Below are positions 30,114 through 34,514 of a DNA stretch of 34,770 nucleotides, one piece after another. Source of the stretch: Hydrogenophaga sp. (lineage in GTDB: Bacteria; Pseudomonadota; Gammaproteobacteria; Burkholderiales; Burkholderiaceae_C). Position numbers and translations under genes: made by a program. The notes below the pieces were generated by a model. That model was given only the letters and a program-made list of their open reading frames with translations. It was not told the origin of the DNA and made no database searches. Position 1 is the stretch's first letter, and the number at the start of each line of letters is the position of its first letter. The stretch covers positions 1 to 34,770 of the forward strand of contig JAGKSX010000075.1 in the NCBI GenBank assembly GCA_018993155.1. Reading direction: 5' to 3'.

Positions 30114-30708
30114 CCGCGCGGAAGGCATCCAGCCCTTCTGCCTCACGCGAATGGCGAGCCGTTGCCGGGTAGGCCTGGGCATCCACCTCACCGGGCACCA
30201 TCTCCTGCGCGAAGCGCCACGCCACAGCGGCCGTGACCCCGGCCTGGTCGATGGAAGCCACCCCCACCGGCAGGGGCTGCGCCACCAGCTCGGCTTCAAG
30301 CTGCGCAAAGGCGGCCACCAGTTGCCCCTTCACCCGAAGCATCCAGGGCTCGTGCAGCTTCTCGGCCGGGCGCAGATTTCGCTCGTAGACGATCTGCACC
30401 GCCTTTTCGCAAGCCGCCAGACCCAGCCCCACGACGCGCAGCGCGCGCTGCCGCTGCGGCCCGCTCGCCGGCATCAGGCTGCGGCCCGCCACGGACTCGA
30501 CGTGGTCAATGATCAGCGTGGAGTCCATCAGCGTCTGGCCGTCGGCGCACACCAGCGTGGGCGCCTTCACCACCGGGTTGATCGCGCGAAACTCGTCGAA
30601 GGTGCGAAACACCGAGATCGGCCGATGCACATAAGGCAGCCCGAGAAGTTGCAAGGTGACCGCCACACGCCGCACATAGGGCGAGTCGAGCATGCCGATG
30701 AGTTCCAT
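30100..30708 (-). CDS. Glutathione S-transferase-like protein
   Basis: This 202-residue protein starts at ATG 30708 after AAGGA. It begins with a thioredoxin-like domain, MELIGMLDSPYVRRVAVTLQLLG, where Ser9 of SPYVRR is at the usual catalytic position. It continues with INPVVKAPTLVCADGQTLMDSTLIIDHVE (cis-Pro and glutathione gamma-Glu-binding Ser region in segments) and an all-helical C-terminal domain with VGVASIDQAGVTAAVAWRF. It probably conjugates or reduces small compounds with glutathione in the cytoplasm. It diverges from the Lrp/AsnC regulator gene, which may control it. Its end is convergent with the AcoR-like gene, with an 8-bp hairpin at 30094-30113. Confidence 0.9.
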   Translation of the reverse strand: MELIGMLDSPYVRRVAVTLQLLGLPYVHRPISVFRTFDEFRAINPVVKAPTLVCADGQTLMDSTLIIDHVESVAGRSLMPASGPQRQRALRVVGLGLAACEKAVQIVYERNLRPAEKLHEPWMLRVKGQLVAAFAQLEAELVAQPLPVGVASIDQAGVTAAVAWRFAQEMVPGEVDAQAYPATARHSREAEGLDAFRAAPFA

Positions 30709-30832
30709 GTTTCCGTCCTTGGATAAAAGGCCCATGCTAGACAATGGCACCGCCCCCTCCAAGCGCGGGCCATCGGAATCCGGCCCTCGAAACCGATGGA
30801 TCATCGCTGCCCGCGCCACACGACACACCGCC

Positions 30833-31285
30833 ATGAAGCTGGACAAGAAAGACCTCCTCATCCTCGAAGCCCTGCAGCGCGACGCGCGGCAAAGCCTGGC
30901 CGCCATCGGCAAGCGCATCGGCCTGTCGCAGCCCGCCATGAGCGAGCGCGTGCGCAAGCTGGAGGATGCGGGCGTGATCGAGGGCTACAGCGCGCGCGTC
31001 AACCTGCGCGCCATCGGCATCGGGCTGCAGGCCCTCATTCGCATCCAGACCACGCACGCCGGCATTTCCCAATATGTGCAGCTGTTCGAGAACATGCCGG
31101 AGGTGCTGGAAGCGGACCGCGTGACCGGGGAAGACTGCTTCATCGTGCGCTGCGCCATCGCCGAGCCGAAGGATCTGGAGCGCGTGGTCGACGCGCTCGC
31201 GGTGCACGGCAGCGTCACCACCTCGCTGGTGCTCTCCAGCCCGGTGCGCAAAACCGCCACGGTGTTCGCAACGCGGCGGGCGTAA
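30833..31285 (+). CDS. Lrp/AsnC-family transcriptional regulator
   Basis: This 150-residue protein starts at ATG 30833. The N-terminal helix-turn-helix lies at about residues 4-48 (LDKKDLLILEALQRDARQSLAAIGKRIGLSQPAMSERVRKLE in segments, then GVIEGYSARVN). The C-terminal RAM/AsnC ligand-binding domain has VLEADRVTGEDCFIVRCAI and LAVHGSVTTSLVLSSPV. Such regulators bind amino acids and form octamers. It is divergent from the GST-like gene with 124 bases between, so it may regulate that gene and itself. Its end is 16 bases from the convergent NYN gene. Confidence 0.93.
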   Translation: MKLDKKDLLILEALQRDARQSLAAIGKRIGLSQPAMSERVRKLEDAGVIEGYSARVNLRAIGIGLQALIRIQTTHAGISQYVQLFENMPEVLEADRVTGEDCFIVRCAIAEPKDLERVVDALAVHGSVTTSLVLSSPVRKTATVFATRRA

Positions 31286-31301
31286 GCCGCATCGCAGGCG
31301 A

Positions 31302-31754
31302 TCAGTCCGTCAGGATCGACTCCGTGTAGATGAAGCTGGTGCACGCCGCCACAAATGCCCGTGGCGTCTGCCGCGCGCCGAAGCCATAGACGCGAACACC
31401 CTCGCGCCGCACACCGAACGCCAGCGGCGTGAAATCGCTGTCTGACGAGACGAGGCAGACCGCATCGAACTGCCCCGTGTTCACCAGCGACATGGCCTCC
31501 ACGCTGAGCATGATGTCGGCCGCGTTCTTGCCCTTGGCGTAGGGAAAAAGCTGCACCGCTTCGATGGCGTTGTGGAGCAGCACGTTCTTGAAACGGCTCA
31601 TGCCGGGCCGAGACCAGTCGGCATACGCGCGCTTGACGATGAGCACGCCGTAACAGGCGGCGCGCAACAGGATGGAACGGATCAGCGTGTGGGAGACGTT
31701 CTCCGCGTCGATCAACACGGCGAGTTTCTGTTGCTTGTGCTGCAGCTTCGGCAT
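31302..31754 (-). CDS. NYN-domain (PIN-like) putative RNase
   Basis: 150 residues from ATG 31754 (AAGG about 13 bases upstream). An in-frame ATG at 31892 exists, but the extra residues do not resemble the family. The NYN/LabA-type acidic residues are present: Asp16 in LAVLIDAENV, Asp80 in KGKNAADIMLSVEAM, and Asp105/Asp107 in CLVSSDSDFTPLAFGVRREG, then VYGFGARQTPRAFVAAC. These form a metal-dependent nuclease site in the PIN superfamily, so the product is probably a cytoplasmic RNase, although many members are uncharacterised. It lies at the edge of the AT-richer region holding the Abi-alpha pair, but its own composition matches the core genome. Confidence 0.88.
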   Translation of the reverse strand: MPKLQHKQQKLAVLIDAENVSHTLIRSILLRAACYGVLIVKRAYADWSRPGMSRFKNVLLHNAIEAVQLFPYAKGKNAADIMLSVEAMSLVNTGQFDAVCLVSSDSDFTPLAFGVRREGVRVYGFGARQTPRAFVAACTSFIYTESILTD

Positions 31755-32300
31755 AGGTGCCTGCCTTCCCTGTTCGTGGAGGAACAGCCGCCGCCACACA
31801 ACACAGAGTGGCGGCGGCCCGAACGGGTTGAGAACCAGGAAAATTCTCGCGAAAAACCGGCAGGCCTTGCGACCTCCCATTCGAGCCGCCATAAAACAAG
31901 CGTGAATGATGAAGGCCGCTGTTCTAGCGGTGTACAGCGGCCTTCAGGCCGCGACAGTTTTCTCGGGTTCTCAAGCCCGGCTCACCTTTTTCGTGAGCGG
32001 AAGGGACTGTACATCAATACGACGAAAGCATTCAATGGGCGTGAGAGAAAAATCTGCAGCGAACGGTCCCAGTCTCGCAGGTGCACCATCTCAGCGCCCG
32101 CAGCAGCGGCACCAAAGAGAGCGATCCGAAGGCAGCTGTGCAGCGGTTGCAGTCTTTCAGCTTCGAGGTCCGAGTGACTCGAGTAGACCAAAAGCGGACT
32201 CTCCCGAAAGGAAAAACAGTCGCTCAATTTCTGGTCGGAGGGAATGCAAACGGCAAGCGGCTCGCCGGTAGCATTCCACTCCACACAGGTTCAGCCACCC
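31755..32300. other. 546-base non-coding interval with strong hairpin
   Basis: This interval lies between the NYN gene and the end of the HEPN-like gene. It holds a perfect 12-bp stem (GAAGGCCGCTGT 31911-31922, 11-base loop, ACAGCGGCCTTC 31934-31945) and a second small stem GCTCAC/GTGAGC (31980-31998). Composition becomes more AT-rich here. ORFs of 100-120 codons exist on both strands but have no recognisable domain or ribosome site. No tRNA or integrase remnant was found. Confidence 0.6.
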
Positions 32301-33605
32301 CTACGCATGGAACGGGGTGCTCGCTGCGATGAGAACCTGCTGGGCGACAAACTGAACAAGCTCAATGTCATGGGCGAGCTGCTCAGCCTCCTTCGAAAAC
32401 GGCAGTAGCAATTCAAACTCAGAGTTCTTCGCGTCCGTCTTTGTGTGCACGATCTTGCATCGAATCTCATAGATTCGCTCTGCAACATCGGCCCTGAGAT
32501 CGGCTGTTGGGCTTGCTATGGGAATCTTGTGGTCGCAGAGTCCCCTCACTTTTGACGAGAGGAAATCCGAACGAACCGAGTCAGCTGTAATGAACTGTCG
32601 AACGGCCTCGGCATCGATGCACTCCAACAGCGTGGCTCGGAGCTGTGATCTCTCGTCTCCGAATGCGCCCGACCTACTAACGTGGATTGCCGATAGAAGA
32701 CGACCAAGGTCTGCATCTCTATCACCACGAAAACCCGGATCTTTGAGGACTGCCTTGAGCTTGCGCCGCGCATCAGCCTGAGAGTACGTCGGAAAATAGT
32801 ACTCAATCACTTGGTAGTACGCGAGGTACTGGAGTAGGGGCATGCCAATGGCGCTGCGTGCATACCAGTACAAAGAGATAGGAGCCGAGTCGTACTCATG
32901 CACCGGGAACGCGATATCTGGCGGCTGCTCAGCTCGAGTCGAACGTCTTCGCCGTGCCAGAGAGCGGCGCTCACGAACAAGCGTGAATGTCACGTCATGC
33001 AGCAGATCGATCTGAAAAAATAACGCATCGGAGACGCGACGAAGGTGTTCAAGCGCCTTGTCGTGTTGAGTGATCCCGTCGGCGGTCAGTGAGATTGACA
33101 ATCTTGGGCTTGGGCCACGAACTAGTTTGGAGAGTTCGGCTGATGGCTCCGAGATGGCAAGCGAAGTCTTCTGATCCGGTGATAAAAGTTCAAGTCCTGT
33201 AGCGGCGTTATGGTCCGCCGAAACACCCGGAGGAACCTTCAGCAGGCGAGAGAGGAGCGACCTTGAAGAGGACGCACCTAGAGCGCGAACTGCCGCTTCG
33301 ACTGTCCCTGTCTTGTAATTGCAGACGGCATCAAGTCCTTGCAAGAACACGTAGTCCTCAAATGGCACTGATAGCAATCGCTCAAAACTAGAAAAGTTAA
33401 AACAGCTGATCCAGCGTCGCTCTCTACCGCAGGGAATGCCGACTCGGAAAACTCGTTCACCAGGTTCAAGTCCTTCGACCTCCTCTATCGGAATCTTCGC
33501 AGCGACACATCTAGCCTCAAGTTTGTCACGCAGGGGCTTTATGTCACCCTGGGACTCGGTTTCGGGGGCAAGATCCTCTTCCGGAAATTGTTCAATGTTC
33601 GACAT
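32301..33605 (-). CDS. Unrecognised 434-residue protein with C-terminal HEPN-like Rx4H motif
   Basis: The first ~30 residues are acidic, followed by a mixed domain (VFRVGIPCGRERRWISCFNF). A basic, Arg-rich patch (LVRERRSLARRRRSTRAEQP) falls mid-protein, then a helical C-terminal half with LQYLAYYQVIEYYFPTYS and DVAERIYEIRCKIVHTK. The last contains Arg382-x4-His387, the arrangement of HEPN ribonuclease active sites, in the RNxxxH-like position before a polar stretch. HEPN domains are frequent toxic RNases in phage defence and toxin-antitoxin systems. I do not recognise the full-length family. It lies 84 bases after the Abi-alpha gene on the same strand, and GC is clearly lower than in the rest of the window. 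No good ribosome site is seen at ATG 33605. Confidence 0.75.
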   Translation of the reverse strand: MSNIEQFPEEDLAPETESQGDIKPLRDKLEARCVAAKIPIEEVEGLEPGERVFRVGIPCGRERRWISCFNFSSFERLLSVPFEDYVFLQGLDAVCNYKTGTVEAAVRALGASSSRSLLSRLLKVPPGVSADHNAATGLELLSPDQKTSLAISEPSAELSKLVRGPSPRLSISLTADGITQHDKALEHLRRVSDALFFQIDLLHDVTFTLVRERRSLARRRRSTRAEQPPDIAFPVHEYDSAPISLYWYARSAIGMPLLQYLAYYQVIEYYFPTYSQADARRKLKAVLKDPGFRGDRDADLGRLLSAIHVSRSGAFGDERSQLRATLLECIDAEAVRQFITADSVRSDFLSSKVRGLCDHKIPIASPTADLRADVAERIYEIRCKIVHTKTDAKNSEFELLLPFSKEAEQLAHDIELVQFVAQQVLIAASTPFHA

Positions 33606-33689
33606 GATTGATCGACTGAGTATTGTGGATGGCGGAGGTTTGAATCCAACGGCCGCCAGAGGCGGTCCGCTTGGAGAGAGGATCGGGCT

Positions 33690-34514
33690 TCACTGAAGAC
33701 CAATGGCCCGTGCAAAACGCTTCCCAAGTTCGGTGCGCTGCATGACCCCCTTTTGATACTCCACCTGTACCTCGTCTTGTTGTGGTTCCTGACGCAATCG
33801 TAAAAACTCAGGTCGTTGGTCTGCCCAAGCGTAGTGAGCGGCTTCGGTTAAGTGCTTGTCGTAGGCCACATCAACTAGTCCGAGGCGAATCCAGTTGTCA
33901 ATCATTGCTGGAAGCTGCGGGTCTTCAACGGGCACGCCCGTAGTTGAATTTTTCAGATTAAGCAGATGTTGAACGAGCACGCTGTAGCCAGAGCCGTCCT
34001 TGAACTTTCGATGAATTTGGATGATCGGAATCGCGCTCTGGGATTGAAGTGCCTCTCGGACTAGCCTTGCATCTTCGCTATCAAGTTGTTTGATGATCTC
34101 CACAAAAGCCGGGTGCGCAAATGAGGCAGAGCGACCATCCATTGAAGTAGTCAGCAAATTTAGATACATCTCTTTGAGATCCGGCTCGTCGTGCGTGAAC
34201 GCGAGCCCCTGCAACGTAGGGCCGGCAATGGATGCCTTTGGCTCAACAACGTACTCTGGTGGTATTGCTTGCGCCTTCTCAGCAATGTCTTGCTGGAACC
34301 TCCCAGAAAAGTAAGCTCGGGCCTTGTCGAAAGCGAAGTTGATTGCGGCCAAGGGAACAAGCACGTTGTTGATGGTCTTTGTCAGCGTAACGGCCGTCTG
34401 TCCGAGATTGCCTGCAGCTTCCTTGACCTGTGGGTTGTCACCCGCAGCCTTAATGACCTCCACGACGAGCGAAACGCTGTCCTTGGCTACGTTGAACGCA
34501 TCGTCATTCGACAT
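33690..34514 (-). CDS. Abi-alpha (DUF4393) family protein, putative abortive infection factor
   Basis: 274 residues are counted from ATG 34514, preceded by a purine-rich GAGAGGGAG; an upstream in-frame ATG (34583) adds 23 Cys-rich residues unlikely to be real. An N-terminal region with a moderately hydrophobic helix (VLVPLAAINFAFDKARAYF) is followed by the DUF4393 signature: AIPPEYVVEPKASIAGPTLQGLAF, then DEPDLKEMYLNLLTTSMDGR and AHPAFVEIIKQLDSEDARLV. The C-terminal third (about 175-274) is a winged-helix-like helical region with WIRLGLVDVAYDKHLTEAAHYA. Family members are named for a proposed role in abortive phage infection, with unknown mechanism. It is the first gene of a two-gene unit with the HEPN-like gene. 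Confidence 0.85.
   Translation of the reverse strand: MSNDDAFNVAKDSVSLVVEVIKAAGDNPQVKEAAGNLGQTAVTLTKTINNVLVPLAAINFAFDKARAYFSGRFQQDIAEKAQAIPPEYVVEPKASIAGPTLQGLAFTHDEPDLKEMYLNLLTTSMDGRSASFAHPAFVEIIKQLDSEDARLVREALQSQSAIPIIQIHRKFKDGSGYSVLVQHLLNLKNSTTGVPVEDPQLPAMIDNWIRLGLVDVAYDKHLTEAAHYAWADQRPEFLRLRQEPQQDEVQVEYQKGVMQRTELGKRFARAIGLQ

Follow-up and report, generated by a model that had tools for sequence, protein, structure and literature searches.

A putative single-gene HEPN abortive-infection protein beside an Abi-alpha gene in a Hydrogenophaga genome

Two defence-like genes lie side by side near one end of contig JAGKSX010000075.1 of Hydrogenophaga sp. (assembly GCA_018993155.1). The window analysed here is this entire contig (C150 in our set; 34,770 nucleotides) from a 94.2%-complete assembly. 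One gene (32301-33605, minus strand) encodes a 434-residue protein of an unnamed HEPN family. The other (33690-34514, minus strand) encodes a 274-residue protein of the Abi-alpha family (DUF4393, PF14337). The original prediction joined them into one candidate defence unit, with a sensor or regulator and a toxic RNase. Our analysis indicates that they are probably two separate anti-phage genes and not a new two-part system. It is likely that the HEPN-family gene encodes a single-gene abortive-infection (Abi) RNase that has landed beside an already known single-gene Abi system. The family assignments of the prediction, its conserved Arg382 and His387 and the defence-like mobile setting of the HEPN gene are retained, whereas the two-gene unit is not.

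Conserved residues and predicted fold of the HEPN-family protein

The HEPN-family gene, which starts with ATG, was assigned by homologue alignments and HEPN-type structural matches. At least 753 relatives were found at an E-value of 0.01 among 7993 candidates scored. The window protein carries R382-C-K-I-V-H387 (32445..32462, minus strand), the Rx4H motif of HEPN domains, at exactly the residues named in the prediction. A lone Rx4H in 434 residues could be due to chance, but its conservation across homologues speaks against this. When the window protein was aligned with 41 relatives that are 16-79% identical to it, R382, C383, H387 and E268 were invariant in all 42 sequences. Only eight columns are invariant in this diverse set, with R382, C383 and H387 among them. 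The same four residues were invariant in an earlier alignment of 35 sequences. R-C-x3-H is present in 120/120 homologues among the matches listed, the window's own included. R-x4-H is found in every one of the 33 HEPN-family loci with an open reading frame (ORF) of at least 400 residues, out of 39 loci surveyed, and these include the most distant one.

The positions of these residues also agree with a HEPN domain. R382 and H387 are located at the end of helix 371-386, as in HEPN domains. The invariant Glu268 (codon 32802..32804, minus strand) lies in helix 256-269 and would correspond to the acidic residue of HEPN helix 2, the helix numbering being our own reading. The HEPN reading of the 434-residue protein is thus supported by its invariant residues, the place of the motif at a helix end and the structural matches. 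At curated cut-offs, the window protein passes no family in the libraries scanned (Pfam, NCBIfam and PHROGs), and it has no match at all in NCBIfam or PHROGs. No PDB chain matches it in sequence. Judged by profile scans of the 42 sequences, the library names for the family are only partial, namely DzbB in PADLOC and MauJ in Pfam. Going by titles and the openings of abstracts among the matches listed, no description of the family was found in the literature. Stand-alone HEPN abortive infection is already known as a mode; the family itself is only partly named.

Three domains are predicted in the structural model. An N-terminal alpha-beta-beta-beta-alpha domain (about residues 20-85; 33351..33548, minus strand) has weak fold matches of the double-stranded RNA-binding domain (dsRBD) type. 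A middle alpha/beta domain (about residues 89-224; 32934..33341, minus strand) weakly matches Bet v 1/START-like and aIF2-alpha folds. The C-terminal domain (residues 235-434; 32301..32903, minus strand) is predicted to have a HEPN-like fold. Its structural matches are of HEPN type (AbiV, Csm6, MtlR and RnlA) in eight of the ten listed, with modest scores. The N-terminal domain may be a true dsRBD-like sensor, so that binding of phage structured or double-stranded RNA would unleash the HEPN RNase in cis, as a one-protein counterpart of antiviral RNases triggered by double-stranded RNA. We regard this as unlikely. The KKxAK motif of dsRBDs was not seen in residues 20-85. The isoelectric point of residues 10-90 is 4.7, which counts against the basic RNA-binding face of a dsRBD. 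R61 and R64 in this domain are 97% conserved.

The top Foldseek match of the HEPN-family protein is RnlA/LsoA. In another explanation, the protein would act as the HEPN-type toxin of a toxin-antitoxin pair like RnlA/LsoA, whose antitoxin lacks conservation or comes from a gene elsewhere. The TM-scores are only 0.1-0.17 with E-values far from significant, and there is no sequence match. RnlA is not among the fold matches listed for the N-terminal half, an absence that proves nothing. Furthermore, no recurrent partner is seen, as no family besides the HEPN gene itself occurs in more than three HEPN loci (RnlB was not profile-searched). We consider such a toxin unlikely.

Independence of the two genes

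The coordinates and lengths of the two same-strand genes were confirmed, as was the 84-base gap between them (33606..33689). The Abi-alpha gene has its ATG at 34514, immediately preceded on the 5' side by the purine-rich AGAGAGGGAG, and an alternative reading with a TTG start extends to 34583. Its family assignment stands, since the protein matches PF14337 with 157.9 bits (cut-off 29; E 4e-46) over profile positions 3-195 of 196. It is also matched by PADLOC PDC-S47 (E 2.7e-41), and 857 homologues were found. Both genes are foreign in composition. Their GC fractions of 0.525 (Abi-alpha) and 0.539 (HEPN) compare with 0.692 for bases 1-31900, in line with the lower GC noted in the prediction. 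Beyond the Abi-alpha start the contig continues for just 256 bases on the upstream side, so the neighbourhood further out is not visible.

In a real two-gene Abi or toxin-antitoxin unit, Abi-alpha would sense the phage or restrain the HEPN RNase. The shared strand, the short gap and the similarly low GC are consistent with such a unit, and both families carry defence annotation. A simple scan of the gap's minus strand detected no sigma-70-like promoter, and co-transcription is possible for this reason. The survey of other loci argues against a unit. We surveyed 39 HEPN-family loci (31 in genomes and 8 in viral contigs) and 22 Abi-alpha loci (13 viral and 9 genomic); two loci from one genome (L003 and L082) were counted once. 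Profile searches found Abi-alpha in 0/39 other HEPN loci and the HEPN family in 0/22 other Abi-alpha loci, while the window's own locus was recovered by both family profiles as a control. Six of the HEPN loci (L021, L028, L030, L037, L038 and L041) are cut by a contig end with less than 160 bases visible 5' of the gene, so that 33/39 are informative on the 5' neighbour. Our Abi-alpha profile (A6) was built from sequences sharing 66% or more identity with that of the window, and for this reason it might miss a highly divergent Abi-alpha in the eight viral HEPN loci. The 31 HEPN-bearing genomes were searched in full with the Pfam PF14337 model itself.

That search found PF14337 in 2/31 genomes, in both cases outside the fetched HEPN locus. 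Both proteins were also searched for in 399 genomes drawn from the order. Two of these have the HEPN protein and nine have Abi-alpha (seven over the cut-off), and the window's genome is the only one with both. PF14337 is thus somewhat more common in HEPN-bearing genomes (2/31) than in the order (9/399), a difference in favour of a unit that rests on tiny numbers. The Abi-alpha set includes one locus below the Pfam cut-off (G372), one copy split into two frames (G286) and three loci (L108-L110) whose matches are nearly identical and which are unlikely to be independent; a sub-cut-off match in G056 was left out. HEPN relatives that are 69-72% identical to the window's (L004-L006) stand without Abi-alpha. 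The two families do not co-occur elsewhere as far as the loci reach, and the idea of a single unit was accordingly given up as very unlikely. Since the arrangement is not conserved, the adjacency is most simply explained by two separate acquisitions.

No neighbour family occurs in more than five of the 9 genomic and 13 viral Abi-alpha loci, and the recurrent ones are found mostly within similar viral contigs. The GC of the Abi-alpha stretch is below that of its surroundings in 9/9 genomic loci, seven from the order and two from HEPN-bearing genomes. Judged from its sequence, the Abi-alpha gene here is probably an independent, known single-gene Abi. A tRNA-like stretch in the gap was also considered as an integration site, an idea that was then given up: ARAGORN found no tRNA in the window, and a 26-base pattern occurs just once in the genome when up to three mismatches are allowed. 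An empty-site comparison drew on 40 genomes; within the genus, bases 30700-31900 were matched at best with 68% over 316 bases.

Mobile setting of the HEPN family and the downstream region

The genes around the HEPN family are rich in defence functions. ORFs within 2.5 kb of the HEPN-family gene (131 of 132, one dropped for length) matched 290 PADLOC models at an E-value of 1e-5, whereas 13 models were matched by the 101 ORFs at distances above 5 kb in the same loci. This contrast is overstated because models, and not genes, are the unit counted. The defence genes named include IetA/IetS, Gabija GajB, bSEFIR, type IV restriction, AriA and reverse transcriptases. Pfam matches nearby include integrases, VapE, S24 peptidases and the P2 capsid. 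The GC of the HEPN-family gene is below that of its locus in 34/35 loci of at least 8 kb, four shorter loci being left out. By record titles, the family occurs in many bacterial groups. A plasmid search gave one distant match, and a search of deposited phages gave none. Like Abi-alpha, the HEPN family looks like lone mobile cargo. At two loci the HEPN-family gene directly adjoins other genes that look like defence genes, which follow it at L013 (9353-10789) and precede it at L027 (3759-5600). Inspected by eye, these include a TIR/SEFIR-like protein and an OLD-like ATPase.

This setting bears on the view that the protein is a catalytically dead or housekeeping HEPN-like protein, similar to MauJ, with no defence role. 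PF17419 (MauJ) is the sole Pfam match of the window protein, at 24.2 bits and below the cut-off of 28. The same model matches 37/42 family sequences at an E-value of 0.01, and some relatives bear a precomputed PF17419 label. Against this, the catalytic set is invariant, and the family is patchy in distribution, low in GC and associated with prophages and defence genes. We give this view very little weight. Membership in a Dazbog-type system as a DzbB-like component is most improbable, for although the PADLOC DzbB profile (version 2.0.0, which shows no cut-off for DzbB) matches 41/42 family sequences with a best E-value of 3e-13, the window protein covers only positions 204-314 of 341 (E 2.2e-6), and the DzbA partner (PDLC03835) expected beside DzbB is absent from 38/39 genomes or records (L041 was not in the search), the lone match lying outside the fetched HEPN locus. 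That match (L106; G086 contig 26, 19180-20280) has one internal stop and belongs to the same genome as HEPN locus L030.

Immediately downstream of the HEPN-family gene on the same strand is an NYN-domain gene (31302-31892, minus strand; PF01936, E 1e-34). The NYN domain has a PIN-like nuclease fold. The remark in the prediction that no nuclease stands next to the pair is therefore not quite right. A C4 antisense RNA (RF01695) matches at 31807-31896 on the minus strand with 52.5 bits (gathering threshold 45), at the 5' end of the NYN gene and about where the GC drops. C4 is a phage RNA that controls an antirepressor. Directly upstream of it is an isrK-like RNA match (31909-31998, minus strand), which reaches 34.3 of the 50 bits required for gathering (E 5.7e-5 in a 3.5-kb search). 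Ten C4 matches in this genome exceed the cut-off, whereas a search of 23 other genomes of the genus gave none; of 16 genomes of other families, two hold four further matches in all, one of them below the cut-off. An NYN homologue directly follows C4 in seven of the ten matches of this genome. Diverged copies of the NYN and C4 block (73-87% identical) are present elsewhere in the same genome at L076 (1292-2036), L077 (6154-6835) and L078 (5322-6024). Each copy stops close to the C4/isrK region, past which the ORFs differ. The recurrent C4-NYN pairing may merit separate attention.

Proposed action and comparison with known systems

The single-gene reading suggests how the HEPN-family protein may act. 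The two N-terminal alpha/beta domains would keep the protein inactive and would sense a product that arises when phage infects the cell. Upon triggering, the C-terminal HEPN domains, with E268, R382 and H387, would act as a dimer and cut RNA indiscriminately. This would halt the cell before the phage matures, in a manner like that reported for the prophage HEPN protein Tha. The Abi-alpha and HEPN-family genes would be neighbours because each was carried to this site as mobile defence cargo. What looked like a two-gene system is probably not one, and the better target is the HEPN family, which is carried by prophages and defence islands. If the protein protects against phage on its own, it would add an RNase defence that is widespread, needs a single gene and has its sensor at the N-terminus.

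Abi-alpha was described in prophage 6 of E. faecalis V583 (EF2833) as a single gene that causes premature lysis of infected cells (PMC6356687). The copy here belongs to the same Pfam family, is of similar length (274 versus 272 residues) and is likewise mobile cargo. It differs in having a HEPN-family gene as its neighbour, and its activity is a prediction from sequence. The HEPN-family protein resembles DzbB across the HEPN region of the PADLOC profile; its match is partial and, unlike DzbB of Dazbog, it has no DzbA partner. RnlA/LsoA (RNase LS) likewise has a HEPN domain placed after alpha/beta N-terminal domains. The window protein differs in having no conserved neighbour fit to be an antitoxin and no significant similarity. 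AbiV typically does not have the motif histidine and may use another (PMC3710099), whereas the histidine is invariant in the present family. The AbiV structure 9bj7 has 165 residues and no N-terminal half comparable to that of the window protein.

Tha, the tail-activated HEPN system of S. aureus prophages, shares with the present family a C-terminal HEPN domain with R-x4-H near the protein's end, a separate N-terminal part and carriage by prophages. H270 of R265-x4-H270 is required for its action against phage, and phage minor tail proteins trigger it, directly or not (PMC11087260). From this comparison, which covers motif and architecture only, we propose that the window protein is an RNase that is autoinhibited and carries a sensor of its own. 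Tha-1 has 301 residues and RNSIMH at the motif, whereas the window protein is longer, at 434 residues, with RCKIVH at the motif and, in the predicted model, two folded N-terminal domains.
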